Source: Tyzzerella sp.
GTDB lineage: Bacteria > Bacillota > Clostridia > Lachnospirales > Lachnospiraceae
Reading direction: 5' to 3'
Length of the DNA: 38,789 nt
Assembly: GCA_017465565.1 (NCBI GenBank)
Contig: JAFTWA010000040.1
Location: forward strand, 1 to 38,789
Shown piece by piece: positions 11,773 through 35,700 of the stretch. Position 1 is the first letter of the stretch. Every line of letters begins with the position of its first letter. The notes below the pieces were generated by a model. That model made no database searches and was not told the DNA's origin. It saw only the letters and a list, made by a program, of their open reading frames with translations. The position numbers and the translations under genes are program-made.

Positions 11773-11804
11773 ACGATAAAGAGTCTTTAAAGGAGAAAAT
11801 GACA

Positions 11805-13190: not shown

Positions 13191-13191
13191 G

Positions 13192-17787: not shown

Positions 17788-18636
17788 TTATAACTTATTC
17801 TTAAATTGTTTTCGAAACTCCAATGGAGAAATTCCTATTACTTGTTTGAAATAACTTGAAAAATGTGTATTGCTGTTAAAACCAACTTTTTCTGCTATGA
17901 AAGCCAATGATTGTTCGGTGGTTAGCAGCAATTTTTTTGCTTCATTGATTCGTATATTCAGAATGTATTTGTGTACACTGGTTCCGGCATGTTTCATGAA
18001 CAAACGGTTTAAATGATACTCATGATAACCACTCATGGCAGATAGCATTTCATTGTTTAATGGCTTGTCATAATGATTCTTAATGTAATCCATAATTTGT
18101 GAAACAGTAGTCGCAGAGTTGGGCGTGCCTGAAATACTGTATCTGTGCAGTTCTACAAGAAGATTTTTTAATAGGGCGCTGCTGTTTTCACGATAATATA
18201 TCTTCTGCATGGAGAACTCATTCAATATTTTTTTGAGAGGGTTCAGACAGTCATTTGCGTTAGCAATAAAAAGGTGTGAATTAATAAATTCACTGTCATC
18301 AACTGTTTCCAGGTTAATAGAAGGAATGTGCTCTTTATCTGACAGGCTAATGCGTGGATAAAATTCTGTGTGCACATTATCGCGCTGTGTCAAATCAAAA
18401 TTCAAAGCAAGAATCTTTACGCCAGAAGACTGCATGATATAGGTATGTCCTGCAGAACAGTAGAATAAAGAGTTTGGAATTAGCTCATAATGCTGATTTT
18501 CAATGAAAAGCTCTGCCTCACCAGAAATGACATATAAAATTCGGCAGTCCTTTACGAAAACAGGATTTTCTGGCAATCTAGGGTGAAAAACATACTCAGC
18601 AAATCGTATAAATGGATTGATATCACAAAAATTCAT
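17788..18636 (-). CDS. AraC family transcriptional regulator (cupin + HTH)
   Basis: The protein has 282 residues. An N-terminal cupin-like sensing domain occupies about residues 10-140 ('AEYVFHPRLPENPVFVKDCR', 'ISGEAELFIENQHYELIPNS'). A C-terminal AraC/XylS double HTH covers about 180-282 ('IMDYIKNHYDKPLNNEMLSA', 'LAFIAEKVGFNSNTHFSSYF', then 'ISPLEFRKQF'). The start at 18636 has AAGGAG eight bases upstream; the in-frame ATG at 18654 would place that site inside the gene. It follows the radical SAM gene by 24 bp on the same strand. A sugar or other small ligand is expected. Confidence 0.9.
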   Translation of the reverse strand: MNFCDINPFIRFAEYVFHPRLPENPVFVKDCRILYVISGEAELFIENQHYELIPNSLFYCSAGHTYIMQSSGVKILALNFDLTQRDNVHTEFYPRISLSDKEHIPSINLETVDDSEFINSHLFIANANDCLNPLKKILNEFSMQKIYYRENSSALLKNLLVELHRYSISGTPNSATTVSQIMDYIKNHYDKPLNNEMLSAMSGYHEYHLNRLFMKHAGTSVHKYILNIRINEAKKLLLTTEQSLAFIAEKVGFNSNTHFSSYFKQVIGISPLEFRKQFKNKL

Positions 18637-18660
18637 GGTCAGTTCTCCTTTCATCTAGTT

Positions 18661-19647
18661 TTATGGACATCGTATGAGTCCTTGTGCCCACAGGCACGCA
18701 CCGCATGTTGGTTCAATATTATACATGCAGTCCTTTTTATTTTCCAATCGGTCTTCACATCCCATACAGATAGTACAGCAAGGATAATTGAATTCGGAAA
18801 CATTATTCTGGAAATCCATATATTCTGAACTGTTGAAAATATCAGAAAAATCTTGCGTGTTGATGTTCCCATAAGATTTTGAATATACTTTTCGTTTCTC
18901 ATTATAAAGATATGTATATGAGTTGTGCAATAACTGCATACAAGGGCATACTTCACCATCCCAGCGGATGAAACAGCAGTTTTCCGCGATAAAAGGACAC
19001 AGGTTTTCAACCTTATTAGAAGTGTGATTTAGAAAGCGTGTCATTTTACCAACGGGATAATCTTTTTCATACAAAGCCTCTTCCTGATTCAATGGTTCAC
19101 CGGGAAGGACATGGCTAAGGTTTATAAAATCTGCATGAATATCATCGGCAAAACGGTTGATATGCTGCAGTTCATATTCGTTTTCCTTCATCATTACGAA
19201 GGTGATACCTAGCTGGGTGGTTGTCCTTTGTCGATTAAATTCCTCTAGATTTTTCATGATAAGTGAATACATGCTGCCTTTACGGATTCCTTCATAGCTT
19301 TCTCTCGAAAATCCATCCATAGAGACCCAGAGGCAATGTAGTCCTGCACGGAGAAGGTTTTTAACCATAGTGGAATTTAATAAGGTAGCATTTGTAATCA
19401 ATTCTGTTCTTTTTCCTGCTTGCACTGCGCAGGAAACCATTTCAATAATATCTGGGTGCATAAGCGGTTCACCCATTCCGCCGAAAAAAACGGTTTCTAT
19501 GTTTGATTTTTGAAAAATCTGAAATAAAATATTTTTCGTGTCTTTTGACATGAGGCCTTTTTTTTCTTCAAACCAGTTGTTTCGAAAGCACATACTACAG
19601 TTTAAATTGCAAAGTGAAGAGGGCTCAATGTATAATTTTTTAATCAT
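18661..19647 (-). CDS. Radical SAM/SPASM protein, tungsten-cofactor-maturase-like
   Basis: This 328-residue enzyme has the radical SAM motif C13-x3-C17-x2-C20 (CNLNCSMC), GGMGEP at 56-61, and a Cys-rich SPASM end with C217, C224, C225, C234, C236, C290, C291, C294, C297, C307, C315, C318 and C327. The closing 'TCGACLWAQGLIRCP' resembles maturases of tungsten-dependent aldehyde ferredoxin oxidoreductases, which modify the pterin cofactor or enzyme. That assignment is from memory of the C-terminus, and no AOR-type gene is in the window. Other SPASM peptide modifiers remain possible. Its promoter region is shared with the divergent AraC gene at 19796. Confidence 0.75.
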   Translation of the reverse strand: MIKKLYIEPSSLCNLNCSMCFRNNWFEEKKGLMSKDTKNILFQIFQKSNIETVFFGGMGEPLMHPDIIEMVSCAVQAGKRTELITNATLLNSTMVKNLLRAGLHCLWVSMDGFSRESYEGIRKGSMYSLIMKNLEEFNRQRTTTQLGITFVMMKENEYELQHINRFADDIHADFINLSHVLPGEPLNQEEALYEKDYPVGKMTRFLNHTSNKVENLCPFIAENCCFIRWDGEVCPCMQLLHNSYTYLYNEKRKVYSKSYGNINTQDFSDIFNSSEYMDFQNNVSEFNYPCCTICMGCEDRLENKKDCMYNIEPTCGACLWAQGLIRCP

Positions 19648-19795: not shown

Positions 19796-20608
19796 ATGCT
19801 AAGTGTAAGGAATGAAAAAGAAATTAATGAAGCCGCTTGTTTTGTTGTCGAGCAATATGTCTGTAAGGGGTATAGTCTTCATTTTCATAAAAATCTTGAG
19901 ATTTTCGGTGTTGTAAAAGGAAAGGTGGCAGTTACTATCGCTGGACAGCGCATGGTACTTCATGACGGACAAATTGCGATTATCGACAAGTTTGAGAATC
20001 ACAGTTATGAAATTGATGGAGAGGCAGAGGTTGTCTGTGCATATTTAGGAACAAGGTATCTGAGAGACTTCTATTCTTTATATCCAGAAAAGAGGCTACC
20101 TTTATGGTTGGAGGATACAGATTACAATGAAATTGTATTCCGAGGAATCGAGAAAGCCATGAATGTTTCTGAAGAGAATACCAGTGAATTAGATAAAATA
20201 GCTGCAGTTTATCAATTACTTTCATGCATTGTAGAACGTTATGAGATGGTGGACAAGAAGGATAAGGTTGCGAGTGATAATGAATTTACAACGGAAGTTG
20301 TTCAGTATATCTATGACCATTATAACGAAAACATCACATTAGAGACTCTGTCAAAGGTGTTTTATGTTTCGCCGAAAGCACTAGGTATCAAAATTGGAAA
20401 AAGGCTGAATGTGGATTTGCGTGTGTTTGTAAACGACATTCGCGTGCAGCGGGCAGTTCAGATGATGGATGATTCAAAGAATAAAGATAAAACATTAGAA
20501 GAAATTGCGATGATGTGCGGTTTTAACAGTATGAGAACTTTTTATCGCAGTTATGAGCGCAATTTCGGCTTTCGAAAACTTCCAGGAGAAGAAAAATCGC
20601 AAAAGTAG
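19796..20608 (+). CDS. AraC family transcriptional regulator (second)
   Basis: The 270-residue protein has an N-terminal cupin at about 20-90 ('GYSLHFHKNLEIFGVVKGKV', 'LHDGQIAIIDKFENHSYEI') and an AraC-type HTH pair at about 160-265 ('VVQYIYDHYNENITLETLSK', 'LEEIAMMCGFNSMRTFYRSY'). H29 and H31 with E35 look like the cupin ligand set. It is divergent from the radical SAM/AraC pair and stands 121 bp before the long plus-strand gene row, so it is the prime candidate to control that locus. It has little identity with the other AraC protein in the window. Confidence 0.9.
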   Translation: MLSVRNEKEINEAACFVVEQYVCKGYSLHFHKNLEIFGVVKGKVAVTIAGQRMVLHDGQIAIIDKFENHSYEIDGEAEVVCAYLGTRYLRDFYSLYPEKRLPLWLEDTDYNEIVFRGIEKAMNVSEENTSELDKIAAVYQLLSCIVERYEMVDKKDKVASDNEFTTEVVQYIYDHYNENITLETLSKVFYVSPKALGIKIGKRLNVDLRVFVNDIRVQRAVQMMDDSKNKDKTLEEIAMMCGFNSMRTFYRSYERNFGFRKLPGEEKSQK

Positions 20609-20729: not shown

Positions 20730-21674
20730 ATGAAATATATGATTGGTCTCAAAAACGGAGACAGAGAACTTATAGAATGTATTAAAAATTATAAAGAAAA
20801 TATCTATGAAGTTTATTTCTCATGGGGAGATATACCAAATGGCAGAACAAGTCAATTGGAAAATGAGAGATACACACCATGGGAAATGCAGGAGATTCAG
20901 AGAAATGCGCTGAAGGAACTTTCAGAAGAAGGGATTGCGCTGAATCTTCTGTTTAACGCAAACTGTTATGGAAAAGATAGTCAGTCGAGAGCATTCTTTA
21001 ACAAGGTGGGTACTATTATTGACCACGTTGCTGAAACTTACGGCTTACAATCAATTACAACCACTTCGCCATTAATTGCAAAGTTTGTGCATCAAAATTT
21101 TGAGAATATAGAAGTTCGGGCATCGGTCAACATGGAAATTGGCACAGTGCAGGGCATGGAATATCTGGCAGAGTATTTTGACAGTTACTATATGAAGCGC
21201 GAACTCAATCGTGATTTCGAAGCAATAAAGGCGCTGCATAAATGGTGCAATGAAAACGGAAAGAAGATGTATCTATTGGCAAACAGTGGGTGCTTAAATT
21301 ACTGTTCAGCGCACAATTTTCATGACAATCTGGTGGCTCATGAAGCAGAGATTGCACAGATGGATAATGCATACGATTTCCATGGCATCTGTAAAGAGTA
21401 TTTGAAGAATGAAAATCATTATCAGGCACTGATTGATAATACAAACTTCATTCGACCAGAGGATATGCATCTATATGAACCTTATTTTGAGGCGGCGAAG
21501 CTGGCAACCAGAATCCATCGTAATCCAAGTATGGTTGTCAATAGTTATATGAGAGAAAAGTATAGCGGTAATATTTTGGAACTGCTAGAACCAGCACATA
21601 ATATTTATCCTTATGTGGTGGAAAATGGAAGTCCATTGAAACTCAGGAAAATTGATGAAGAGTTTTCAATATAG
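20730..21674 (+). CDS. U32-peptidase-like protein with possible [4Fe-4S] site
   Basis: The 314-residue soluble protein resembles the U32/UbiU-UbiV TIM-barrel family. 'VRASVNMEIGTVQGMEYLAE' (129-148) matches the segment around the barrel strand that in U32 proteins reads 'ASLQLNVTN', and 'MKRELNRDFEAIKAL' follows. The cysteines C173, C188, C192 (GCLNYC) and C221 could bind an Fe-S cluster as in UbiU/UbiV. UbiU/V perform oxygen-independent hydroxylation; other members act on tRNA or peptides. It leads the operon and is followed after 21 bp by the first of three Fe-S paralogues, so an electron-transfer or B12-linked role is plausible. No close family name is recognised. Confidence 0.7.
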   Translation: MKYMIGLKNGDRELIECIKNYKENIYEVYFSWGDIPNGRTSQLENERYTPWEMQEIQRNALKELSEEGIALNLLFNANCYGKDSQSRAFFNKVGTIIDHVAETYGLQSITTTSPLIAKFVHQNFENIEVRASVNMEIGTVQGMEYLAEYFDSYYMKRELNRDFEAIKALHKWCNENGKKMYLLANSGCLNYCSAHNFHDNLVAHEAEIAQMDNAYDFHGICKEYLKNENHYQALIDNTNFIRPEDMHLYEPYFEAAKLATRIHRNPSMVVNSYMREKYSGNILELLEPAHNIYPYVVENGSPLKLRKIDEEFSI

Positions 21675-21695
21675 ACAAAGGAGAGGAGAGAAAAC

Positions 21696-22775
21696 ATGTT
21701 AACAAGTAAAATGATCAAAGAAGTTGCTTTGGCAGCAGGAGCAGATGCTTGTGGGATTGGACCAATGTCACGTTTTAACGGGGCACCAGATGAAATGAAT
21801 CCACAGTTTTTGTTTCCAGAAGCGAAAAGTGTAATTGGATTTGTATTCCGTATTCCAAGAGGAGTGCAGAGAGGAATTGAAGAAGGAACACAGTTTTATC
21901 AATATCCATCTATGGCATATGGTGGAATCAATGAGATTTTTGCACCAGCAGTACTTTATCAGGTTGGAAAGCTAATAGAAGACGAAGGGTATGAAGCATT
22001 TGTTTATCGAAACACTGGCGCACGTGGTGTAGTTTCAGATATGGATGGAAGTCCTGGAAATACATTATCTCCAGAGGAACAGATTGAAGTAAATGAAAAT
22101 GCAAAGACATCGACTGCACACCACAGAAGTGTACAGTTTACAAGACCAACACGCGAAGACAATGTAGCACCAGATTTACAATTTCAATTCCGTCTTGCGG
22201 CAGTAGCATGTGGACTTGGTGAAATTGGCTGGAGCAAAATGCTTTTAACTCCAGAGTTTGGTCCTCTCCAGAGAGTTGCATTTCTTTTTACAGATGCAGA
22301 GTTAGAATACGATGAAATGTATAGTGGCAAGCCACTCTGTAGAAGATGTGGTGCCTGCGTAAGAGAATGTCCAGGAGGATGTATTCCTGCTCTTAATTCA
22401 GGTAAGACAATCAGTGTAAATCTGGATGGTAAAATCTGTGAGTGGGGTGACATCGATATGTGGAGATGTTACGCATTCTATACACACGCAGGAAGATATT
22501 ACAACCCATTTGTTCCAAAGGAAGTTTGGGATGCAAATGAAAATGGAGCTCTCGATTTGATGGAAGGTGTTACAGACGTGGCAGATGAGAAAGAAATTAT
22601 GAAAGTATACACCGCGCTTCAAAAGTATTTTCCGAGCTGGGTTGGATATAACATGGCAAAATGTGGCGGCTGTATCAGAGCTTGTGTATCTGTCTTAGAG
22701 AAAAAAGGTGGCTGCATGGAAGGCAGATTTGAAGAACCACTCAGAACAAAGAAAGCATGGCGATTAGACAGATAG
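21696..22775 (+). CDS. QueG/reductive-dehalogenase-like double [4Fe-4S] protein A
   Basis: This is a 359-residue cytoplasmic protein. The segment 'ACGLGEIGWSKMLLTPEFGP' (171-190) matches the cobalamin-facing core of QueG epoxyqueuosine reductases and of reductive dehalogenases. A ferredoxin-like region supplies C215, C218, C221 and C225 (CRRCGACVREC) plus C258, C323, C326 and C330 for two [4Fe-4S] clusters. It has about 60 more residues than its two neighbours, mainly an insert at about 105-155. No Tat signal is present, unlike respiratory RdhA. Whether it binds B12 is inferred only. GGAGAGG precedes ATG 21696. Confidence 0.82.
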   Translation: MLTSKMIKEVALAAGADACGIGPMSRFNGAPDEMNPQFLFPEAKSVIGFVFRIPRGVQRGIEEGTQFYQYPSMAYGGINEIFAPAVLYQVGKLIEDEGYEAFVYRNTGARGVVSDMDGSPGNTLSPEEQIEVNENAKTSTAHHRSVQFTRPTREDNVAPDLQFQFRLAAVACGLGEIGWSKMLLTPEFGPLQRVAFLFTDAELEYDEMYSGKPLCRRCGACVRECPGGCIPALNSGKTISVNLDGKICEWGDIDMWRCYAFYTHAGRYYNPFVPKEVWDANENGALDLMEGVTDVADEKEIMKVYTALQKYFPSWVGYNMAKCGGCIRACVSVLEKKGGCMEGRFEEPLRTKKAWRLDR

Positions 22776-22796
22776 TAGAAGAAGGAGAGAGTGATT

Positions 22797-23690
22797 ATGT
22801 TAACAAATGCGCAGATTAAAGAAAAGGCAAAAGAACTTGGCGCAACCGTATGTGGAATTGGGAAAGTGTATGAAGAACCAAATCCTCAAAGAGACCCAAA
22901 GATGATTTTGCCAAATGCCAAATGCATTATCGGTTTTGGTTTCGCTGTACCAAAGGGGCTCTACAAAGCAATGGACAGAGGAAACCAATATTATACATAT
23001 ACAACTATGGGCGTCAAATACATCGACGAAGAAATGGCAGAAATCTTCCTTTTGAAAATTGGTGGAATGATTGAAAATGAAGGCTACGATGCCTGCTTAC
23101 AGAAAGCTATTCCAAATCTTCGAATCAAAGGTGACAAAACAACAAACCCAGAAGTGTTAGATACTTATGAATTAATTCATGCTGAAGCTGTTGCAGAAGG
23201 AAAACCAGTTCCAGATGTTATCATTGATTTCGGAAAAGCTGCAAAGGCTTGTGGACTTGGCGAAATGGGATTAAACGGAAAGATTATCAACAAAGAACAT
23301 GGTCCATTTATGAGGTATTGCTTCATTATCACGGATGCACCAATTGAATGCGATGACGTGAAAGAAGAAAGTATTTGTGATAAATGCGGTGCTTGTATCG
23401 AGGCTTGTCCGGGAAACGCAGTAAGTGAAGAAGGTTTAGATACATGGCAATGTAGTGTTTATTATAAGGGCGCTCACAAATCAAATCCATTTATTACGGA
23501 TGAGTTCTTGAAGGGTAATCCTGAAAGAGAGGCAATTCTAAACGGAGAGAAACGTTTCGATGCAGAATCTGCCCGTGAAATATACAAAGAGATGAACTTC
23601 TTGCCAAATACACAGTGGGGATATTCACCATGCCTTTGTGGCAGAAAATGTGATATTGCCTGCTACAAACATATCAAGGGAGAATTGTAG
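22797..23690 (+). CDS. QueG/reductive-dehalogenase-like double [4Fe-4S] protein B
   Basis: This 297-residue paralogue of the genes on either side has the same order: N-terminal alpha/beta part ('KELGATVCGIGKVYEE', 'GFGFAVPKGLYKAMDRGNQY'), core 'ACGLGEMGLNGKIINKEHGP' (151-170), first cluster C194, C197, C200, C204 (CDKCGACIEAC), then C219, C279, C281, C285 and C289. ATG 22797 is preferred to GTG 22791 because AGAAGGAGAG then sits at normal distance. It starts 21 bp after paralogue A and ends 12 bp before C. Three distinct but related copies imply different substrates or a heteromeric complex. Confidence 0.82.
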   Translation: MLTNAQIKEKAKELGATVCGIGKVYEEPNPQRDPKMILPNAKCIIGFGFAVPKGLYKAMDRGNQYYTYTTMGVKYIDEEMAEIFLLKIGGMIENEGYDACLQKAIPNLRIKGDKTTNPEVLDTYELIHAEAVAEGKPVPDVIIDFGKAAKACGLGEMGLNGKIINKEHGPFMRYCFIITDAPIECDDVKEESICDKCGACIEACPGNAVSEEGLDTWQCSVYYKGAHKSNPFITDEFLKGNPEREAILNGEKRFDAESAREIYKEMNFLPNTQWGYSPCLCGRKCDIACYKHIKGEL

Positions 23691-23702
23691 GAGGTGTATG
23701 AG

Positions 23703-24638
23703 ATGAGAAATAAGATTATTGAAATAGCAAAGCAAAATGGTGCTGACATCGTAGGTTTTGCTTCGGCAAGCAGATTTGACAAAAACGACCCAATCTTCCA
23801 GATTATGCCTGAGACAAAGACCGTTATCGGACTTGCGTTCCGAGTACTCCGCGGAATTTATCGTGGTATTGAAGAAGGAAGTACTTATTATCAGTACACA
23901 ACCATGGCAGTGGAAAATATGGAAGAAACTGTCATGCCTATGGCACAACTAAAGGTTGCTATGATGATGGAAGGTGAGGGATATATTGCCCTTCCTCAGA
24001 GAAGACATCAGCAGATTATGGCAGAGGAAAACAGTACAAATCCAGAGGTTGCTTATGATGCAGTTTACAGAGGACGCACTGCAGAAGTGCAGATGGATTT
24101 CTTAGATGCAGCTGTGAAATGTGGTTTGGGAGAGAAAGGTCTTCACAACACGCTTCTTACAGATGAGTTTGGTCCAATGGTAAGATACTGCTTTATCTTG
24201 ACAGACGCCGAACTTGAAGAAAGCGCAATCGTAGAGCCACACCTTTGTGACAAATGTGGCAAATGTATAAAAGGATGTCCAGGACATGCAATTGATGAAG
24301 ACGGAAATGTTGACCCATGGCAGTGTGCAGTTTATTACAACGGAGCAAACGGAACTAAAAATCCATTTATGCCATTAGACGCATTTGCAGATATGGATAA
24401 TCGTATCGAGATTATTGCTGGTGAAGCAAAAGTAACACCTGAAACAGCCAGAAAGATTTTAGATAAAATCTATTTCTATCCACCGGCCCAGCATGCATAT
24501 CAGTGTTCAATCTGTGGACGTTCATGCGATATGGCTTGTTATGTACATCTAGAAGAAAAAGGCGTGTTGACTAAGAAGTTCAAGACTCCATTCCGAAAGA
24601 GAGAAGAGTGGAAATTTGATATCGAAGATTGGAAATAG
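23703..24638 (+). CDS. QueG/reductive-dehalogenase-like double [4Fe-4S] protein C
   Basis: The protein has 311 residues. The N-terminal part has 'ADIVGFASASRFDKNDPIFQ' and 'GIYRGIEEGSTYYQYTTMAV', clearly akin to A. The core is 'KCGLGEKGLHNTLLTDEFGP' (139-158). Cluster ligands are C182, C185, C188, C192 (CDKCGKCIKGC), C208, C268, C271, C275 and C279. It ends with a basic tail after 'KKFKTPFRKREEWKF' that matches the end of A. ATG 23703 lies eight bases after AGGAGG; the GTG at 23694 overlaps that site. The next gene starts three bases after its stop, so coupling with the epimerase-like gene is likely. Confidence 0.82.
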   Translation: MRNKIIEIAKQNGADIVGFASASRFDKNDPIFQIMPETKTVIGLAFRVLRGIYRGIEEGSTYYQYTTMAVENMEETVMPMAQLKVAMMMEGEGYIALPQRRHQQIMAEENSTNPEVAYDAVYRGRTAEVQMDFLDAAVKCGLGEKGLHNTLLTDEFGPMVRYCFILTDAELEESAIVEPHLCDKCGKCIKGCPGHAIDEDGNVDPWQCAVYYNGANGTKNPFMPLDAFADMDNRIEIIAGEAKVTPETARKILDKIYFYPPAQHAYQCSICGRSCDMACYVHLEEKGVLTKKFKTPFRKREEWKFDIEDWK

Positions 24639-24640
24639 TC

Positions 24641-25528
24641 ATGAGTGATGCAACTTTTAAATTAGAAAATGACTGCATGAAGATTGAAGTTTCTCCAGTT
24701 GGAGCAGAACTTCAGAGTTTATATTCCAAGAAAACAGAGATGGAATATTTGTGGCAGCCAGGACACGATATTTGGCCACACCATTCCATGTTGCTTTTTC
24801 CAAGTCCAGGAAGGATAGCGGGTGACCGTGTGATTATTAGTGGAAAGGTTTATCCAGCTACTATGCACGGGTTTGTAAATGATATGGAGTTTGAAGTAGT
24901 AGAGGCTGATAATAAACATCTTCTGTTTCAATTGTCAGCAAATGAGGAGACAAGAAAGTGTTTTCCTTACGAATTCCGCCTGCAAGTGGATTTTTCATTG
25001 GAGAAAGATGTTGTTAGTCAGAAGTTCCGCGTAATCAATGATGATAATAAAATAATTTACTTTTCGCTAGGAGCACATCCCGGGTTTTACTGTCCGATTG
25101 TACTTGGCGAAAGTGGAGACGATTATTCACTAGAATTTGATTCACCACAATACATAAACAGTTTAGAACTACAAGAGGGCACACGCCTGCTTACGGGAAA
25201 AAGAATTCCATGGCTGCAGGGCGGGACTGAAATAAAGATTAGCGACCAGTTTTTTGATGATGGACCGAAGATGCTCGAAGGAGTTCGGGCAGAAGCTATC
25301 ACCATGAAATCAAAACGCTCTGGACATTTTGTGGAATTGGGAATTAAAGATTTTCCATATATGTGTCTGTGGGGCGTAGGGACAAGAATGTCGATTTTTT
25401 GTATTGAGCCATGGTGTGGAGTTTCAGATTTGGCAGATACAGACCATGTCTGGGAAAAGAAGCTCGGAATTGAGGTTGTCGGTGTTGGAGATGTTTTTGA
25501 ACGGACACTGACATTCCGAGTGGGATAA
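24641..25528 (+). CDS. Aldose 1-epimerase-like protein (LacX type)
   Basis: The 295-residue galactose-mutarotase-like beta-sandwich protein has probable catalytic-site histidines H76 (ATMHGF) and H146 (GAHPGF), and the opening 'VSPVGAELQSLYSKKTEMEYLW' common to LacX-like aldose epimerases. These enzymes interconvert sugar anomers or bind hexose derivatives. ATG 24641 follows the stop of the Fe-S gene by two bases with no strong separate ribosome site, which suggests re-initiation. An upstream TTG at 24629 would overlap that gene. Its presence ties the Fe-S module to sugar metabolism. Confidence 0.85.
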   Translation: MSDATFKLENDCMKIEVSPVGAELQSLYSKKTEMEYLWQPGHDIWPHHSMLLFPSPGRIAGDRVIISGKVYPATMHGFVNDMEFEVVEADNKHLLFQLSANEETRKCFPYEFRLQVDFSLEKDVVSQKFRVINDDNKIIYFSLGAHPGFYCPIVLGESGDDYSLEFDSPQYINSLELQEGTRLLTGKRIPWLQGGTEIKISDQFFDDGPKMLEGVRAEAITMKSKRSGHFVELGIKDFPYMCLWGVGTRMSIFCIEPWCGVSDLADTDHVWEKKLGIEVVGVGDVFERTLTFRVG

Positions 25529-25568: not shown

Positions 25569-26432
25569 ATGAAAAAGAAAAGAAAATTTGATGCATTTCC
25601 ATACTTGCTTTTGTTGCCGGTAATTGCATCTAGTGTTTTGTTTAGTTTTTACCCGTTTCTAAAAACCATTATTTCTTCTGTGGCATTTACTGATACTTTT
25701 GGAAACTGGACAGGATTTGCAGGAGGCACATTTTGGAGCATGATGCTAAAAAATGATGAGTTTTGGATGATATTGTGGACTACTGTGAAATTTGCAATTG
25801 CAAACTTCATTGGAACATTTTTTATGGCGATGCTGCTTGCATTACTTTCTGTAAAAAGAACGAAACTTGGCAAAGTTTACCAGATGCTCTATGCACTGCC
25901 AGTAGCGATGGCTTCTGCTATCAGTTCTGTAATCTGGAAATCATTCTTTAGTCAGAATGGAATTTTAAATTCATGGCTCGGCACAAACATTTCGTGGATG
26001 GTGGATGTGGACAAATCTTTCTGGGTTGTAACAATTGTTACGGTGTGGTGTCATATTGCAGGTAGTTACATTTACCTTCTGGCAGGATTTCGTGGGGTAT
26101 CCGAAGATATTCAGGAAGCAGCTATCGTAGATGGGGCAAATTCTTTTGTGCGAGCATTCAAGATTATGATACCGATGGCATCTCCACAAATTTTCTTTGT
26201 ATTATTTGTAAATATTGTAAATGCAATCAAGACATTTACACAGATTAAGTTGCTTACTGCAGGCGGTCCTGCAAAGTCAACAACGACAATTATGTACGAT
26301 GTCTATGTGAGAGCAATCGAATTAGGAGAGTTTGAGTATGCATGTTGTCTTTCAATAGTACTCTTTATCTTAATCTTCCTGGTAACCAGAATTCAGTTTG
26401 TTTTGGAAAATAAATTCGTACATTATGAATAG
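25569..26432 (+). CDS. Carbohydrate ABC transporter permease (MalF-like)
   Basis: The 287-residue protein has six transmembrane helices and the EAA loop 'EDIQEAAIVDGANSFVRAFK' (about 178-197), which docks the ATPase. It belongs to the CUT1 branch that imports oligosaccharides or glycosides. AAAAAGGAG lies upstream. It pairs with the MalG-like permease 15 bp downstream and the solute-binding lipoprotein after that. No ATP-binding subunit gene is found in the window, so a shared MsmX/MsmK-type ATPase elsewhere is expected. Confidence 0.93.
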   Translation: MKKKRKFDAFPYLLLLPVIASSVLFSFYPFLKTIISSVAFTDTFGNWTGFAGGTFWSMMLKNDEFWMILWTTVKFAIANFIGTFFMAMLLALLSVKRTKLGKVYQMLYALPVAMASAISSVIWKSFFSQNGILNSWLGTNISWMVDVDKSFWVVTIVTVWCHIAGSYIYLLAGFRGVSEDIQEAAIVDGANSFVRAFKIMIPMASPQIFFVLFVNIVNAIKTFTQIKLLTAGGPAKSTTTIMYDVYVRAIELGEFEYACCLSIVLFILIFLVTRIQFVLENKFVHYE

Positions 26433-26447
26433 GAAGGAGAGTGTGCT

Positions 26448-27257
26448 ATGAAAAAGAAAGATATTGTATCTGACATATTTAAAATACTACTTGGTATTGT
26501 TTTGGTTCTGCCGCTAATTTTAGCAGCAAGTATATCATTTATGCCAAAGGCGGATATTATGAAGATTCCGTTTGAATTGAATCTTAGCAATGCGACATTG
26601 GAAAATTATATTCATTCATTTAAATATATGAATTTGTTAACTTATTTTAAGAACTCATTCATTATGGTTGGAATTGAATTACCTTGTAAAGCATTCACGG
26701 CGCTGTTAGCAGCGTATGCGTTCTCACACTTTGAATTTCCAGGTAAGAATTTCCTGTTTACATTAACGCTTACCGTTATGATGATTCCGGGCGAAGTAAT
26801 TATCATGAGTCTTTTCAAGATGATTATGGGATGGAATTTGATTGATACATATGCAGGGTTAACCATTACAGGATTGGTGGATGTAGCTGCGGTATTTATG
26901 CTCCGACAGAATATGTTGTCTATTCCAAAATCTCTTCATGAAGCGGCAAGGATTGATGGTTGTGGACGTATGAGATATTTCTTCAGCATTCTTGTGCCAC
27001 TGTGCAGGACGGTAGTTGCAGCATATGCACTTAGAGGATTTATTAATATATATAACAGTTATATGTGGCCACTTTTGGTTACAACAAAAGATGAGATGAG
27101 AACCATACAGACGGGAGTTGCGCAACTTAGCTGGAGTAGTCACAGCGGACTGGTACTTGCGGCAGCTATGATTACATCAATTATTCCGTTAATGGTATAT
27201 TTCTTCGGAATGGATTCTATCGTAGAAGGTATGACTGCAGGAGCAGTGAAAAATTAA
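26448..27257 (+). CDS. Carbohydrate ABC transporter permease (MalG-like)
   Basis: The 269-residue membrane protein has six helices and the EAA loop 'KSLHEAARIDGCGRMRYFFS' (about 163-182). The N-terminal 'SISFMPKADIMKIPFELNLS' and the 'AYAFSHFEFPGKNFLF' segment are typical of CUT1 MalG-like subunits. AGGAAGGAG precedes the ATG. It forms the translocation pore with the upstream MalF-like subunit. A hairpin lies between this gene and the binding-protein gene. Confidence 0.93.
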   Translation: MKKKDIVSDIFKILLGIVLVLPLILAASISFMPKADIMKIPFELNLSNATLENYIHSFKYMNLLTYFKNSFIMVGIELPCKAFTALLAAYAFSHFEFPGKNFLFTLTLTVMMIPGEVIIMSLFKMIMGWNLIDTYAGLTITGLVDVAAVFMLRQNMLSIPKSLHEAARIDGCGRMRYFFSILVPLCRTVVAAYALRGFINIYNSYMWPLLVTTKDEMRTIQTGVAQLSWSSHSGLVLAAAMITSIIPLMVYFFGMDSIVEGMTAGAVKN

Positions 27258-27268
27258 ATTCGGTACAT

Positions 27269-27293
27269 AACTGCACCGAGAGTAGATGCAGTT
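27269..27293 (+). terminator. Hairpin between permease and binding-protein genes
   Basis: A 7-bp stem (AACTGCA / TGCAGTT) with an 11-nt loop is followed by TTAT only. It is too weak for full termination and may instead stabilise the upstream or downstream mRNA, so that the binding protein is made in excess. Confidence 0.5.
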
Positions 27294-27329
27294 TTATGAC
27301 AATATAAAAAAGTAATGGAGGTAATTATC

Positions 27330-28676
27330 ATGAAAAAGAAACTTTTATCAACAATTCTCGTACTTGTTCTTGCATGCTCATGTTTGACAGCATGCGATGG
27401 AGGTGCAGGAGATGACACAAACGCATCAGGAAAAATAGAACTTTCTCTTTGGAGTACTTACACAGAAGCAAGTAACTTGAAACTGACTGAATTGGTAGCA
27501 AGATTCAACGCACAGAGCGATAAGTATGAAGTGAAAATGGAGATTGGACAAAGCGCATCTGGAAATCGTCAAAAACTTGCAGCATCTACTCCAGATTACT
27601 ATCCATCTATGTTCATGGGAACAAACAATGCGATTGTAGAGTATGCTCAATCAGACTATACGGCTCCTATTCAAACATTTATTGATGCAGATAGTGAAGA
27701 TTGGACAGCAGATGTCTTAGGCGCGGTAAAAACAGGTTTTTCAGATAATGAAGGTAATTTAATTGGTTTGCCAGTTGGAACTAGTGTAAAAGGATACATG
27801 GTAAATGTTGATTGCCTAACAGCAGCAGGATATACATTAGACCAAATGACAAGCTTTGAAAAAATTGCTGAGGCTGCTCAGGCTGCAAAGCAAAAAGGTG
27901 TTTGCCAATACGGATATATCCCATCTGACGGAAGCGATATCCTTAATATGTTATTGTATCAAGGAGTAAACATCTTTGATAGTGGAGACGGATACGACGG
28001 AGATGTTACAAAATGTCTTTACGGAGAAGGCGAGACAAATAAATATTTAAAGAAATATTGTGAAATCTTAGCAGGACTTTTCAAAACAGAAGCAGCTATG
28101 AAGAATACAAATGGTGCTGATGGTGGTACTTCTACATTCGTAAATGGAAAAGCAATGTTCTGGGGAACAACAAGTTCATTCGTTTATGAATTTGCAGATG
28201 TTGATATGAACTTTGAATGGGCATTCATTCCATTTAGAGGTGTTGATGACAATGCAAAATATACAGATGTAGTGTTCGCTGAAGGAACAGGAATCTTTAT
28301 TGGAAATACTGGCGATGAAAAAGAAATGCAAGGTGCATATGAATTTATCAAGTTTCTTGGAAAACCAGAAAACCAGATATTCTGGTGTACGTTCCGTGGA
28401 TATACACCATATACAAAATCTACATTAGATAGTCAGGAATGGATTACATGGAGAGATGCGAACCATCCAACAGAACTCGCATTAGAAGCACCATTACAAA
28501 ATGCAGATATGGGACTTAGATTCCCTAACGTTCCATTGATTTCAAAAATTCTTACAGTTAATAAAGAACTTACAAGCTATATTATGTCTGACCCTACTGG
28601 CGATTTAGATGGATATATTAAACAGACAGTTGATTCTGTGAATCAGTCAGTTGATATGATGAATGCTCGTAAATAG
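27330..28676 (+). CDS. Extracellular sugar-binding lipoprotein of ABC transporter
   Basis: The 448-residue family 1 solute-binding protein has a lipoprotein signal peptide: a basic start, a hydrophobic core, and a lipobox LTAC with C22 as lipid anchor. The mature protein opens 'IELSLWSTYTEASNLKLTEL', the usual first strand of MalE/UgpB-like proteins, and contains many aromatic residues suited to sugar stacking. ATG 27330 lies nine bases after GGAGG; an upstream start at 27315 would extend the signal peptide without a site. It should deliver the glycan or glycoside to the two permeases just upstream. Confidence 0.93.
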   Translation: MKKKLLSTILVLVLACSCLTACDGGAGDDTNASGKIELSLWSTYTEASNLKLTELVARFNAQSDKYEVKMEIGQSASGNRQKLAASTPDYYPSMFMGTNNAIVEYAQSDYTAPIQTFIDADSEDWTADVLGAVKTGFSDNEGNLIGLPVGTSVKGYMVNVDCLTAAGYTLDQMTSFEKIAEAAQAAKQKGVCQYGYIPSDGSDILNMLLYQGVNIFDSGDGYDGDVTKCLYGEGETNKYLKKYCEILAGLFKTEAAMKNTNGADGGTSTFVNGKAMFWGTTSSFVYEFADVDMNFEWAFIPFRGVDDNAKYTDVVFAEGTGIFIGNTGDEKEMQGAYEFIKFLGKPENQIFWCTFRGYTPYTKSTLDSQEWITWRDANHPTELALEAPLQNADMGLRFPNVPLISKILTVNKELTSYIMSDPTGDLDGYIKQTVDSVNQSVDMMNARK

Positions 28677-28699
28677 TGATTTTGAAAGGGGAAATTCTG

Positions 28700-29752
28700 A
28701 TGAAAAAAATCAAATTTCTAAAGAAAATCAGTTGCCTCATGCTTGTTATGTTAATTACTCTGACTGGCTGTAATTTCAGCCAGTCGGCTTCAAAAGACAG
28801 AATCACTACAGGGGTAGGATATGAGGACACTGTGTTTAACCGCGAGCTGGTAGAAGGAAAGATGGCAGTTTATTATTTGTCATCTGGTCTCAGTATTTCT
28901 ACATGGTACAACCAGACAGCTGGCGGTGATGCTATGATTATCATTATGCCTGATGGTACAACAGCGATGCTTGATTGTGGTCATCAAGGAGAGGGTGCAC
29001 ATGCACTTAATAGATTAAAACAATTAGGTATTGAAAAATTAGACTATTTTATCGTTTCACATCCTCATACGGATCATATTGGCGGTTTTTCTGTTATTGC
29101 ACGTAATGTTGAAATCGGGCATGTATATATGCCTCCTATAGAGGTTATGGACCGAGCTGACGTTGTTGCCAAGGACTTTATAGATGGTTTAGAAGAAAAG
29201 AACATACCATATACACATTTGGCAGCAGGGGATGTTGTAGAACTTTCAAAAGATGTAACGATGAAAGTATACAATCCAGAGCCAGGATTTGGTTCAAATA
29301 CAAAAATTAACTTAAATGAATCCTCGTTACTTACAAAGTTTATCTATAAAGATTCAAGTTATTTGATGAATGGGGATATTGCCAACAACGGCACAAATGA
29401 AAAATTCAACTTTGCTACAGAAGACTATCTCGTAGAAAAGTATGGAGATGAGCTTAAGGCAGACGTATCAAAAATCGGGCATCACGGTAATGCGGATACT
29501 TTGAGTAGTATGGAATGGAGAGAAACGGTAGGTGCTAAGATTTATGCTACATTAACCACATTTCCACGTGATTATGGAGAACATATGAAAAATATCCAAG
29601 CCGGAGGAATTTCTCTTAACACGGCTTTGGATGGAGATTTTGTAATATACACAGATGGAGATGGCACATATGATGTTCAGGTGTCAAAAGACCGCGCTTC
29701 AATGGAATATGAAGTCCTAGACACAAAGGACGGATACATGCATGTAGAATAA
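28700..29752 (+). CDS. Metallo-beta-lactamase-fold lipoprotein (ComEC C-terminal-like)
   Basis: The 350-residue secreted protein has a lipobox LTGC (C24). The metal motif 'HPHTDHIGGF' gives H121, H123, D125 and H126. Further ligands are likely D in 'YLMNGDIA' and the histidines of 'KIGHHGN'. This is the arrangement of ComEC/Rec2-like MBL hydrolases, here without the membrane channel. It is anchored on the outer membrane face, between the sugar-binding lipoprotein and the giant beta-helix protein, with only short gaps. Substrates of such stand-alone proteins are mostly unknown; phosphodiesters or nucleic acids are family precedents, but a sugar ester is possible here. Confidence 0.85.
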   Translation: MKKIKFLKKISCLMLVMLITLTGCNFSQSASKDRITTGVGYEDTVFNRELVEGKMAVYYLSSGLSISTWYNQTAGGDAMIIIMPDGTTAMLDCGHQGEGAHALNRLKQLGIEKLDYFIVSHPHTDHIGGFSVIARNVEIGHVYMPPIEVMDRADVVAKDFIDGLEEKNIPYTHLAAGDVVELSKDVTMKVYNPEPGFGSNTKINLNESSLLTKFIYKDSSYLMNGDIANNGTNEKFNFATEDYLVEKYGDELKADVSKIGHHGNADTLSSMEWRETVGAKIYATLTTFPRDYGEHMKNIQAGGISLNTALDGDFVIYTDGDGTYDVQVSKDRASMEYEVLDTKDGYMHVE

Positions 29753-29768
29753 GGTAAGGAGGATGTTC

Positions 29769-32700
29769 ATGGAAATGAGTAATGAGATAACAAAAAATAA
29801 GAAAAAGTTTCCGATAGGTTTGATCATTTGCCTTGCCCTGCTTATCGTTTGTGCCGGGGCTACGGCTGGAGCATTGATATTAAAAAATGTATCTTCAAGT
29901 AAGAATATAGAACTTTCGGAACAAATGGAAGCGGCTGATGAAGAGACTCTGCGCAAAATCTTGGCCGCAGATGGGACATGTACGATTACTCTTACAGAAG
30001 ACGTGGTTGTTTCAGAGGAATTAGATGTAAATGGTACGAAGACAATTGTTGGAAATAAGAGTATCATCATGGATACTTTCAACATAGGAACTGTAGAGGC
30101 TGTATGTGCTGTTCAAGCTGGAGCACATTTGACGTTAGATGGAGCAACCATCGACGGAAGTGGTGTTGTGAATGGTATCGCTGTAAAAAGCGGTGGAGAA
30201 CTCACATGTCTTTCGGGTGATGTTGTATTCGGATATCCATATGGACTTACGATTGCTGGATTGGCAAATATCGAGGATATTACAATCGATGAAACATTAC
30301 ATACAGGAATCTATGTAGAGTATGGTGGAGAGGCGCACATGAACGGAGGTGTGATTAAGAACAACCTTTATGGTGTTGCCGTTGCATCACAAGCAAGTAT
30401 GACTATCGGTGGTGATAGTGTAATCACAAAGTCAAACGCTATCTTGATTAACAACTACGGAAAACTTGATATCACCGGAGGTAAATTCACAGATGCATTT
30501 GACAATGCGATTACAAACCAAGGTGAAATGACAATCAAGGGTTCAGCAGACAAAATGGTAGAAATCGGTGATGTTGACAGATCCGCAATTGTTTCTAAAA
30601 AGAATTCAAAGTTAACAGTTGAATATCTTCATATGCACGACCTTGGTCTCCACGCAATTGATGTTGAAAAAGACAGTGAGGCTAACATTCAAAATTGTGT
30701 AGCAGAAAAAGCAGGCAGAAGTTGTTTTTATGTGAACAATTCAAAGGTTGTGATGAAGGATGTTTCCATTTCAGACTGTGAAAGTTATGCAATTTATGGC
30801 ACTAAAAATTCCAATGTAGAATTGGAAGGTATCACGGTAAAAGACGTGCAAAATCGTGGTATTGTAAATGACGGAGCTAAAATGACAGCAAAAGATGTTG
30901 TCATTGAAAATACGAAAAAGAATGCGTTCCACACAATGGGTGAAGGTGCGGTTACGAAGATTGAGAATTTGAAAGTTGTCACTCCAAATTCCAATGCTAT
31001 CGCGGCAGTCACAGGTGGAAATGTAAATGCAAAAAATGTAACAATAGAAGAACCGAAGAATGAAGGATTAATTGTTAATGCAGATTCTAAGATTGAAATA
31101 GAAAATGTTACTATCAACAAATCAGGTATGACCAGTGTTGCGAACAATGGTGGAACTCTGGCGGCGAGAAATATCACAATTATCTCTCCAAAGAATATCG
31201 GTATAAAAACAACAGATGGAGGTACATCTGCAGTTAAAGGTGCTGTGATAAAGAATACAGCAAGTCACGCCTTGGCAGTGGAAAAAGGAAGTACTCTCAC
31301 AGTTAGCGATTGTAAGATGGATAAAGTTGGCTGGGATAAAGTAAAATCAGCCGTATATATTTCAAAATCGAAGTTTACAATGAAGAATTCAGAACTCAAC
31401 GATGTGGCTAGTTATGGTATTTATGTAGTTGACGGCGGCAATACAACGGAGAGAGAAACTTATCTTGAAAACGTTACAATCACAAAAGTCGGAACAACGA
31501 ATGGACATAGAGGTATTGCTAACGTAGATTCAAGAATTGCATTAAAAGATGTAAAGGTATCTAATGTCACAGGTGCAGGAATTTATACAAAAGGTGCGAC
31601 GTCAGTTACCAATATGAATGGAGTATCTGTTTCTGATACAAAAGGACCAGCTCTTGGATTCATAGCAGGGACTGTAACTGTAAAAAATACCGAAGTTGAG
31701 GATATTGAAAATGACGGTGTACATGTAGGAAAAGAAGCTCAAGTAAGATTAGACAATATTGCAATTGAAAATGTTAAAGGACAAGGTGTTGGAAACTACG
31801 GCGGTGTTGTTAATATTACAGCTGATAAAGAATGGAACACAGCAAATACAGAAGAAATTGGCGCAAAAATTACGATTATAGGTGAATCTGGAATTTACAG
31901 TGAAGGTGGAACAAGCACAGCTAAAAACACAACAGTTATAAATGCGAAAAAACATGCAGTATGTTTGAAAAAGAGCAGTGATGCAATTATCAACCAATGT
32001 ACTTTTGATACAACTGAAAAATCTGCAGTTTATGTATTAGAATCGAAAATTGATTTAAAGAATTCTAAGGTGTTAAATGCAGGCAGCTATGGTGTTTATG
32101 TAGAAAAGAGTGCAAAGGCTGATGAAAAAGGTGCAACGCTTGAAAATGTTACTGTTTCAAAAGCAGGATACCGCGGCATCGCCAACATAAACTCATATGT
32201 TGTAGTAAAAAATTCTGAAGTAGTAGCATCAAAAGGTGCAGGTGTTTACACTTCTGGGGTGAATGCAATTACTTTGATGAATGAAGTTGTGGCAAAAGAT
32301 ACTGGTGCTAGTGGATTTGCATTGACAGGTGGTCAAGTACAAGCAAGAAATATCACAATTTCAAATACAAAGAACGAAGGTATCTATGTTGGTAAAGATG
32401 TTAATGTAAAAAATCTTGATAATGTTACTATCAAAGATGCAGGAACAGATGGTATTAAAAATGAAGGTGGCACAGTTCATATCACAGTAAATAAAACATA
32501 CAATCCAGAAAACGTAAAAGAAAATGGTGTGACTATTGTAAATCCTGGAAGAATTGGTATCTGGAATACAGGTGCAGGAACACTCACAGGTAAGAGTGTT
32601 GTAATTCAAGATACTGTAACACAAGGTATTTATGTAACAGCAGGTCATGTTGATCTAGATGAAACTACTGTTAATAATGCAAGCGGCCATGGCGTTTCAT

Positions 32701-35700
32701 TGTATGGTGAATCAGCAAAAGCAACATTTAGCAATCTTACAATCAATGACGCAAAGAGTAACGGTATTTACGTTGAAGATGGTACATTAGAATCAACAGG
32801 AACAATTACAATTGACGGCAAAGTTACAGGAAATACAGCTGTTACAGGAGAAGGTCTCTTTGTAAAAGGTGGAAAAGCAAATATTGCTGACATTACTGTA
32901 GTGAATACAAAGGCACAAGGATTGCATTTTGCAAAGAGTAGTGCAGGAAATGTGGCGGATGCAACAATTGAAAAGTTTGATGTAAGTAACACAAACTTAA
33001 GTTCATCAAACGCAGTTGTGTATGTGGATAATGCAAAAGCGACATTAAAGAATGGTACAATCAATGCAAAAAATACGCGTCAAGGTGCTACAACATATGG
33101 TATCAACATCACAGAAAGTACAAAAGCAACTGACAAAATGGTTGTAATCGAAAACGTTACAATCTCAGAAGCAGGTAAATATGGCATTTACAACAGTGGT
33201 TCATGGGTTGAAATGACAGACATTACGGTTGATGAATCAACTGATGATGCGATTTATGTTACAGGTGCAAATGCAGTTGTAAATATGGATACAGTAGACT
33301 TGACAGAATTAAGTAACCGCGGATTAGTAATTGCAGGCGGAACTGTAACAGGTAAGAATGTATCAATCACTGAATTCGAGAATGAAGGTATCAAGTTAAT
33401 CAGTGGAACAAGTTTATCGCTTGACAATGCAACAATTGTTAACGAAAGTAAAAATTCATCAAGCAATAAAGCAGGTATCCTTAACGAGGGCGGTACATTA
33501 ACAATCACAGCTGATAATCAAGCAGTAAATGGGGCTACAATCCAAAATGTGACTGGCGATGGTATCAAAGTTAATAACAATGGTGTAGTAAATGCGACAG
33601 GAGTTACCGTGAAGAACTCTTCTGGATGTGGTATTTACAACGAAAAGGGTGGTACGACTGAAACTCCAAACGTATATAAGAACGTTGTAATTAATAACGT
33701 TGGTAAATTCGGTGTATATGTGCAAGCAGGACAAGCTACTCTTGATAATGTAGATATTAAAAATGTAACAGGAACAGACCGCGACGGTATTAAGAGTGAT
33801 GCGAAGATTGCAATTGTGAATGGTGCTAAAATTGAAAATGTAGCCTCAGGAAATGGTTTAGCCGTTTCTGCAATAGGAAATGTGGAAGCAGATACGTTGG
33901 TTGTAAATCAAGTGTCTGGTAATGCTCTTTTCGTAAAAGGCGGTAATGTGAATGTTACTGTCAAACTTACTGTAAGTAATGTGGGAGCGCAGGCGGTTGT
34001 ATCTAAAGATGATGCAAATGTATCCATTGCAAGTTTTGATGAGATAAACAGCGTAAATACATCTAATGCATATGAAGAAACTGTTTTAGTTGAAAACGCT
34101 AAATTAACTTTAAAAAATGGTACAATTAATACAGGGGACAATTATGGTATTAAGGTAACTGAAAGTACAAAACCAACAGAAAAGAAGGTTGTTCTTGAAA
34201 ATGTTACAATTAACACTCCAAGTAAAAATGGTATTTATAACAATGGTTCATGGGTTGAAATGACGGGAGTTACAGTTGTTAATTCTGCTGATGATAGTAT
34301 TAATGCAGAAGGCGCAGATTCAGTGACTGATATGAGTAATATTACCTTGACAAATCCAGGAAAACGTGGTCTATACCTTGCAGCAGGAACATCGGATATT
34401 AATGGTATTTCAATTACAGGCGCTGAAGACTATGCAATGCAAATTGGACCTAGCGTGTTAATAGGTAAGTTATATGATGTAACTATCAATGGTGCAGATG
34501 ATGGAGAAGGACGTGGCGGTAAACACGGTATTTACGTTGAGGATGAAGCTTTAGTGCAAGATGCAAAAAATATAAGTATTAGCAATATGGCTCAAAAAGG
34601 TCTTTATATGAAGAAAGGAAATGCAACTCAATCAGTAATTAATACGCTTGTGATTAACAATGTATACGAACAAGGAATACAATTGGGTTATGGTGCTAAT
34701 GTCAAAGTTTCTAATTTTGAGGTATCTAATTCAAATAGTAAAGATGGTTCGAATGCAGCAGTTTATGTTCATGATCAGTCAAAGAATGTAGTGTTTGAAA
34801 ATGGTACGATTAGTGCTGTGAAAAATGGAATTACTATTGCAGAGAATTCTGAATTAGTTGCGACAAATGTCCAAATAATTAGAGCAAATGAAACAAATAA
34901 TAATAAAACATTAGTTAGTGTTGGAGCAGGAACAAAATTCACACTTAACGAAAATAATGGAAAATCGCTCATTGGTAAAGAAACAGAATCTCACACCGCT
35001 TATGAGGGACGCGGTGTGGAAGTTTCCGGAGAATTTGTTCTGAATGGTGGAACGATTACTGGTAATAAGATTACAAACAGTACAACTGCTGCTATGTTTG
35101 CAGGAGCTGGTGTATTAGTAAAAGACGGTGCGACATTCACTATGAATGGTGGAAGCATCTCATATAATATTGCTAGTGGAAATCATACTACTAAAAGTAA
35201 TGTTAATACATACGGGGCTGGTGTGGCAGTAGAAGGAAACGATGCCGAAACACAGTTTATCATGACAGGTGGAAGTATTTCCCATAATGATTTAACAGAA
35301 ATTAAAAAATCAAATACATATGGAGCTGGTGTGGCACTGAATGGTGCGAAAGCAAAATTTGAAATGTCAGGTGGAGATATCAGCGACAATGGTAACAATG
35401 ATCTGAATGCCGGAGGAGCAGTATCAATCAATAGTGGTTCAACATTTATCTTAAGTGGTAGCGGACTAATTCAACGCAATAAAGCTAACAATGGTGGCGC
35501 AATACACCATAACAGTGGTAATTTAACCATGGATGGAGGCACTATTGATTCTAATGAAGCAAATGAAAATGGTGGAGCTATTTATATAAATGGTAGTCTG
35601 ACATTTACTATGAATAAGGGAACAATTAGTAAAAATAATGCTAAAAGTAAAGGCGGAGGAATTTACTTAACAGGAGCAGGTACTGTGAAATTATCAGATG

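Follow-up and report, generated by a model that had tools for sequence, protein, structure and literature searches.

What might three adjacent paralogues of the QueG/RdhA superfamily, preceded by a U32-like protein, be doing together in a bacterium such as Tyzzerella sp.? The question is raised by a stretch of 38,789 nucleotides (JAFTWA010000040.1; assembly GCA_017465565.1, 88.6% complete), here called the window, to which all coordinates refer; the tandem paralogues are labelled RA, RB and RC, and L numbers denote loci. Reductive dehalogenases and QueG are the characterised enzymes of this cofactor architecture, for which the accessible part of a 2015 paper expects more mechanistic diversity (PMC4646009). 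The cassette is a real, recurrent system that fits no known enzyme family and is met again and again in gut bacteria, often those of plant-eating animals. Our favoured explanation, held at slightly under even odds (about 0.45), is that RA, RB and RC make up a reductase of several subunits, probably cobamide-dependent, whose substrate is a small molecule from plants, with RA as the catalytic subunit. The four genes are as follows.

20730..21674, + strand: U32-like protein of 314 amino acids (aa) with four invariant Cys (open reading frame (ORF), alignment, model)
21696..22775, + strand: RA, QueG/RdhA-superfamily protein, 359 aa, probable catalytic subunit (ORF, NCBIfam, alignment, tree)
22791..23690, + strand: RB paralogue, 299 aa, clusters kept, pocket Asn changed (ORF, NCBIfam, alignment, tree)
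23694..24638, + strand: RC paralogue, 314 aa, clusters kept, pocket Asn changed (ORF, NCBIfam, alignment, tree)

The gaps U32/RA, RA/RB and RB/RC measure 21, 15 and 3 bp, all on the + strand. A preliminary description of this DNA had placed a U32-like gene and three tandem, clearly divergent paralogues at exactly these coordinates, with a CGLGE core and two Cys clusters in each paralogue and a CX3C pair in the U32-like protein; all of this is borne out by the ORFs, by the CGLGE motif and eight Cys present in RA, RB and RC, by pairwise identities of 32-39% among the three, and by C188 and C192.

Is such an arrangement more than a local accident? Short RB peptides searched against a single genome of each species picked out 56 loci, in which the cassette genes were mapped by tblastn; such a search finds close relatives only and says little about absence of the cassette. 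Counts of 57 include the window. Among the genes present a single order holds in 57/57 loci: all four occur in 45 loci, RA-RB-RC in nine, RB-RC in two and U32-RA-RB in one. The U32 gene is found in 46 of the 57, and five of the 11 loci without it start within the block at a contig end (L020, L051, L056, L064, L073). Median identity to the window is 90% for RA (64-95), 79% for RB, 76% for RC and 58% for U32, and the median ratio of nonsynonymous to synonymous change (pN/pS) is 0.085, 0.16, 0.19 and 0.31, respectively, with synonymous sites close to saturation; RA is by far the most conserved cassette protein. Because one gene order is kept throughout and pN/pS is low, the cassette is not a product of chance. 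The block itself tolerates some variation: the RA-RB spacing exceeds 250 bp in 12/55 loci, a cupin-like gene of about 110 aa (Cupin_2, 26.6 bits vs a cut-off of 27.2) lies inside it in 12 loci, and seven loci have a gene for a YgjV-like membrane protein within the block or next to it. An AraC-type gene stands upstream and divergent in 43 of the 49 loci with enough upstream sequence, being absent from L022, L034, L037, L048, L065 and L069; identity is only 26-47%, which leaves the orthology of these genes unproven.

The distribution is patchy. Locus titles name goat, sheep, cattle, buffalo or deer in 25/56 cases, Lapin (rabbit) in three and human in none. U32 relatives at 64-67% occur in 2/149 other genomes of the window's family, with five more only at 21-24%, and two other genomes of the genus contain no RA match at 1e-20. 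Many copies stand alone, flanked by eye by unrelated housekeeping genes. Taken with the median RA identity of 90%, this pattern looks like horizontal spread. No published description of the cassette appears among the literature matches listed, most subscription journals lying outside the coverage.

Equally important is where RA, RB and RC belong. Against the RdhA model TIGR02486 they score 37.2, 40.9 and 37.3 bits (cut-off 160.35), and against the QueG model TIGR00276 27.8, 47.6 and 43.0 bits (cut-off 200); the QueG domain PF08331 matches none of the three in Pfam, and the sole Pfam hit to pass its cut-off is a short Fer4 domain in RB. Like QueG, the cassette proteins have the two-cluster Cys spacing and a short N-terminus, with a profile match to 5D08 at 6.8e-14; unlike QueG, they carry an active-site Arg, score 28-48 bits against its model, and sit in a genome that has QueH. 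The DYH motif that the accessible part of PMC4646009 treats as QueG-specific does not occur in the alignment of RA, RB and RC. With RdhA they share the two-cluster Cys pattern and the GLGE core region, as well as the pocket residues treated below, whereas the long RdhA N-terminal part is absent, and the cassette differs further in its three linked paralogues under an AraC-type gene and in forming a separate clade. As judged from the alignment (no signal predictor was used), there is no room for a Tat leader, since each protein opens directly with the first element of the common fold, and the ORF list of the block holds no separate membrane anchor of the RdhB type.

A maximum-likelihood tree with 64 rows, to which RA, RB and RC contributed 15 each (several rows long and few outside rows), resolves RA, RB and RC as one clade each, with supports of 100/100, 100/100 and 100/99, and RB and RC as sisters (98/94). 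A split supported at 99/96 sets them, along with 12 further relatives, against the outside rows (three RdhA, two RdhA-like, two QueG-type). On this sequence evidence RA, RB and RC represent three old lines of orthologues within a third clade, distinct from the small sample of RdhA and QueG-type rows. An ordinary RdhA was rejected on score (37-41 bits vs 160.35) and tree position, and the earlier statement that neither QueG nor RdhA explains the cassette stands: both curated cut-offs are far away, QueH is present with QueG not found, and a Tat leader has no room. The reductive dehalogenase (RDH) model itself matches 160/196 genomes of the class and exceeds its cut-off in three; each of 20 chosen RDH-match regions holds an RA-family match, and eight of them are the cassette (L138, L140, L144-L149), L144 and L148 being repeats of L037 and L025.

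What chemistry could this clade carry? The eight cluster Cys, whose spacing matches the QueG ligands of two [4Fe-4S] clusters as given in the accessible part of PMC4646009, are kept in 52/52 RA, 53/53 RB and 54/54 RC relatives, save one RC row gapped at the last two. The preliminary description had said that predicted structures without a cofactor pocket, together with loss of these clusters among homologues, would speak against its proposal; the clusters are kept in the cassette relatives of all three proteins. C172 of the CGLGE motif is likewise invariant in the cassette proteins; it is Ala in 8/12 more distant relatives and in all three RdhA. According to the accessible portions of two papers, Tyr246, Asn272 and Arg305 of PceA sit by the corrin (PMC5500849; PMC4646009), and QueG has no Arg305 equivalent (PMC4646009). 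In an alignment with PceA, the dehalogenase L100 from the class search carries these three residues at the expected numbers, as counted there. The Arg305 equivalent, R193 in RA, is Arg in 52/52 RA, 53/53 RB and 54/54 RC (159/159), and the Asn272 equivalent, N106 in RA, is Asn in 52/52 RA, 1/53 RB and 1/54 RC. The two PceA-type residues thus occur together almost only in RA.

The joint occurrence of RA, RB and RC makes it plausible that they form a reductase with several subunits or one that acts in series. In the mechanism we propose, the three would be partner subunits on a third QueG/RdhA branch, built around a base-off cobamide and two [4Fe-4S] clusters ('class III'). In RA, the catalytic partner, the cobamide would probably be held under a pocket with the dehalogenase Asn and Arg, and electrons would reach it via RA's own two clusters; RB and RC may act as electron-relay or second-step subunits, because their clusters are kept but the pocket is changed. 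The AraC regulator would activate the operon in response to a small molecule of plant origin. A putative glycosidase encoded with it, varying by copy, would release that molecule from its sugar, and RA, RB and RC would then break a C-O bond, or another bond from carbon to a heteroatom, in the released molecule by reduction. In most copies the U32 protein is also present and might add an oxygen-independent oxidation or hydroxylation, like its RNA- and quinone-modifying relatives.

The case for a cobamide also draws on relatives of other build. In L090 and L091 (two genomes, one genus) an RA-like gene adjoins a U32-like gene (44%) and a gene for a 790-aa protein, which in L090 holds two RA-type domains, so that U32 plus three is met again; a sugar-type ABC importer lies near the set, with GH88 in L090. 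One flank is a cobalamin-synthesis cluster with a riboswitch, in which a cobT-type phosphoribosyltransferase, cobW and PocR domains were recognised by Pfam and other genes by eye; the other flank, seen in L097 (the genome of L090), holds MtaB-like, MtaA-like and corrinoid proteins, all below curated cut-offs. Elsewhere in its own genome the window organism has two cobalamin riboswitches and B12-binding domains. The kept dehalogenase Arg and the cobalamin and corrinoid genes around these two distant relatives lend indirect support to cobamide dependence. Further variants include RA-U32 pairs in L136 and L152, the latter also with a cupin, and a two-gene RdhA-like form beside an AraC-type gene, with neither U32 nor transporter, in L139, L141, L150 and L151, the pair standing beside a LacI-type gene in L143 (by eye); being simpler, the two-gene form may lend itself more readily to study.

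Another key component is the U32-like protein. C79, C188, C192 and C221 are invariant in 42/42 relatives, and its predicted model is confident (mean pLDDT 91.5), with strands and helices alternating in a barrel-like manner. The window protein matches no Pfam model at E 1; the U32 model PF01136 weakly matches 6/42 relatives (best E 0.0045), and reaches E 0.00035 in the L090 relative (20.4 bits vs a cut-off of 22.4); kinship with U32 is accordingly weak by sequence. Two ordinary U32 proteins are encoded elsewhere in the genome (1.7e-101 and 1.0e-82), and the cassette member is therefore a third, divergent one. As described in the accessible part of PMC11574389, hydroxylation by U32 oxidases needs no O2, and in quinone synthesis the oxygen comes from prephenate. 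The cassette protein resembles UbiU/UbiV, RlhA and TrhP in its weak profile kinship, its four invariant Cys including a CX3C pair, and its barrel-like predicted structure, but its Cys spacing is not the CX6CX15CX3C found in that same portion of the paper, and PF01136 does not find it. The C-termini of the U32-like proteins of L090, L136 and L152 have an extra Cys group, CX3CX2CX2C, absent from the window protein.

Around the cassette the window contains the following genes.

17788..18654, - strand: AraC-type regulator (HTH_18), divergent from the cassette (Pfam)
18661..19647, - strand: radical SAM/SPASM protein, nearest model a metalloenzyme maturase (Pfam; NCBIfam TIGR04317)
19796..20608, + strand: second AraC-type regulator, with a cupin-like sensor domain (Pfam)
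24629..25528, + strand: aldose 1-epimerase-like gene, overlapping the RC end; not a constant partner (Pfam)
25569..28676, + strand: two ABC permeases and a sugar-type solute-binding protein; not constant partners (Pfam, NCBIfam)
28676..29752, + strand: metallo-beta-lactamase-fold protein (Pfam)
29763..35861, + strand: right-handed beta-helix protein of 2032 aa, sharing the cassette operon direction (Pfam)
35971..37824, + strand: C5-epimerase-C-like protein, possible glycosidase or epimerase (Pfam; PDB profile matches)

Farther upstream, a run of genes at 11799-17431 (+ strand) encodes radical SAM/SPASM, Orn/Lys/Arg decarboxylase, ATP-binding cassette and major facilitator superfamily (MFS) proteins by Pfam.

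Which of these neighbours belong to the system? The preliminary description had set the cassette at the head of a sugar-uptake operon, a placement that finds no support in that form: the transporter is no constant partner, many copies standing alone between housekeeping genes by eye, and a general sugar-uptake link was rejected. Left unlinked there were the upstream AraC and radical SAM genes and the gene at 35971-37824, the final large one of the window operon, whose homologues directly follow RC elsewhere. In 9/57 loci such a homologue, on the strand of RC, begins no more than 1.1 kb past its end, and the protein has profile matches to an alpha-1,6-mannanase (1.9e-7) and a cellobiose 2-epimerase (0.002). 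A DUF5696 gene, whose product has a profile match to the alpha-N-acetylgalactosaminidase 5WZN at 1.9e-32, follows RC in the same orientation, beginning within 1 kb of it, in 16/57. One or other of these glycosidase-like families thus directly follows RC in 25/57 loci, and a constant core beside changing putative glycosidases suggests that the core would act on what they release in common. Two other possible clues were set aside: the cupin as a pointer to the sugar, its best PDB match being uncharacterised, and glycyl radical enzymes beside L028 and L036, for which no model exceeded its cut-off.

Several observations weigh against the reductase proposal. At the level of the active site, the seventh Cys does not align in 7/12 more distant relatives; the position of the catalytic Tyr (PceA 246) depends on the alignment, falling on Y75, found in RA only, or on Y70, found in all 159 proteins, and a profile-profile alignment of RA with RdhA spanned the core only, short of the Tyr; and the predicted RA model is weak over 108-161, immediately after N106. 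At the level of the cofactor, the cobalamin context stems from two genomes of one genus, a riboswitch scan of the window found no cobalamin riboswitch, and that of the relatives (L091/L098, L096) precedes the cob genes, not the cassette. At the level of gene content, U32 is truly missing at the locus in six cases (L021, L024, L039, L065, L068, L069), and L069 also lacks RA despite 2.1 kb of upstream sequence. Neither glycosidase family lies on the same strand within 2.5 kb in 21 loci with at least 5 kb downstream, the window included; the exceptions among them are DUF5696 upstream in L019 and L030 and on the other strand in L054, and the window's own homologue 11 kb on. Finally, among 100 neighbour proteins three is the highest count reached by any Pfam family, which leaves no steady pathway partner; by the same count, the constant company of a known pathway, which the preliminary description had said would speak against a new system, is not found.

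A bolder extension, which we regard as rather doubtful, joins all four genes in one anaerobic pathway. RA, RB and RC would be a third family of class III B12 enzymes, working as an obligate three-paralogue complex coupled to an oxygen-independent U32 hydroxylase; plant glycosides would have their aglycone or methylated sugar first oxygenated and then reductively stripped, and the cassette would have passed among gut Clostridia while its glycosidases were exchanged. Among true alternatives, the one that survives best, although unlikely, dispenses with the cobamide: RA, RB and RC would share the origin of the fold but serve as electron carriers or as reductases with iron-sulfur clusters and possibly flavin. 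Matches to the curated RDH and QueG models of just 28-48 bits, a window free of cobalamin genes and riboswitches in the Pfam and riboswitch scans, and the loss of the pocket Asn from RB and RC would all suit it; the invariance of the CGLGE-region core and of the Arg that lies over the corrin in PceA, and the fact that the best PDB matches of the profile are cobamide enzymes, speak for the cofactor.

O-demethylation, the most specific variant of the reductase proposal, is less probable again. Here a methyl ether on a plant sugar (e.g., 4-O-methylglucuronate) or a methoxylated aglycone would be cut at RA with the help of cob(I)amide, unless U32 hydroxylated its methyl group instead, and the cell would salvage the one-carbon unit. 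The MtaB-like, MtaA-like and corrinoid proteins of L097 fit such a route, as do neighbours of uronide or pectin type, namely GH88 in L090 and beta-helix proteins in the window and, by eye, in L152 and L142; yet that corrinoid-methyltransferase context is confined to one genus, with all three matches below curated cut-offs, no separate small corrinoid protein was seen in the window genome, where the B12-binding matches fall in frames of 819, 583 and 624 aa, and no such reaction was found in the literature searched.

A biosynthetic or maturation role, in which the substrate of the set would be a cofactor, a peptide or RNA and not a nutrient, appears improbable. It takes its appeal from the radical SAM/SPASM gene at 18661-19647 (- strand), whose best model is the tungsten-enzyme maturase TIGR04317 (248 bits vs a cut-off of 380) and a homologue of which (44%) lies between U32 and RA in L146, from the action of known U32 oxidases on RNA and quinones (PMC11574389, accessible part), and from the lack of a catabolic neighbour at some copies. 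The radical SAM homologue is, however, in no cassette locus examined beyond these two, AraC-type regulators and glycosidase-like genes often adjoin the cassette, and its distribution is patchy. Reductive dehalogenation of a natural organohalide has still less to commend it, the PceA-like Arg of all three proteins and Asn of RA being set against scores of 37-41 bits for a cut-off of 160, a block without a membrane-anchor gene, and the glycosidase context.

That one or more paralogues stand in for QueG in queuosine synthesis can be dismissed as most improbable: among curated models RB and RC score best with QueG (43-48 bits) and PF08331 was not found in the 88.6%-complete assembly, which also answers the earlier suggestion to look for a separate true queG, but those scores lie far below 200 bits, the three proteins carry the Arg that QueG lacks, and the replacement was rejected because the genome has QueH (5.9e-71) and shows no QueG. 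Two related genes were seen in passing: a fourth, distant QueG/RdhA-type protein on another contig (C41, L018 4899-6278, + strand), fused to an RDD membrane domain by eye, and a lone RA-like gene in L094 (8910-10556, - strand) adjoining a queH-looking gene (by eye).

If RA, RB and RC do form a multi-subunit, probably cobamide-dependent reductase, one sharp prediction is that RA is catalytic and RB and RC are not. A third clade in gut Clostridia with a fixed three-paralogue make-up would then widen the known chemistry of B12 and iron-sulfur clusters, and the cassette would offer a handle on the oxygen-free removal of C-O bonds by the gut bacteria of herbivores.

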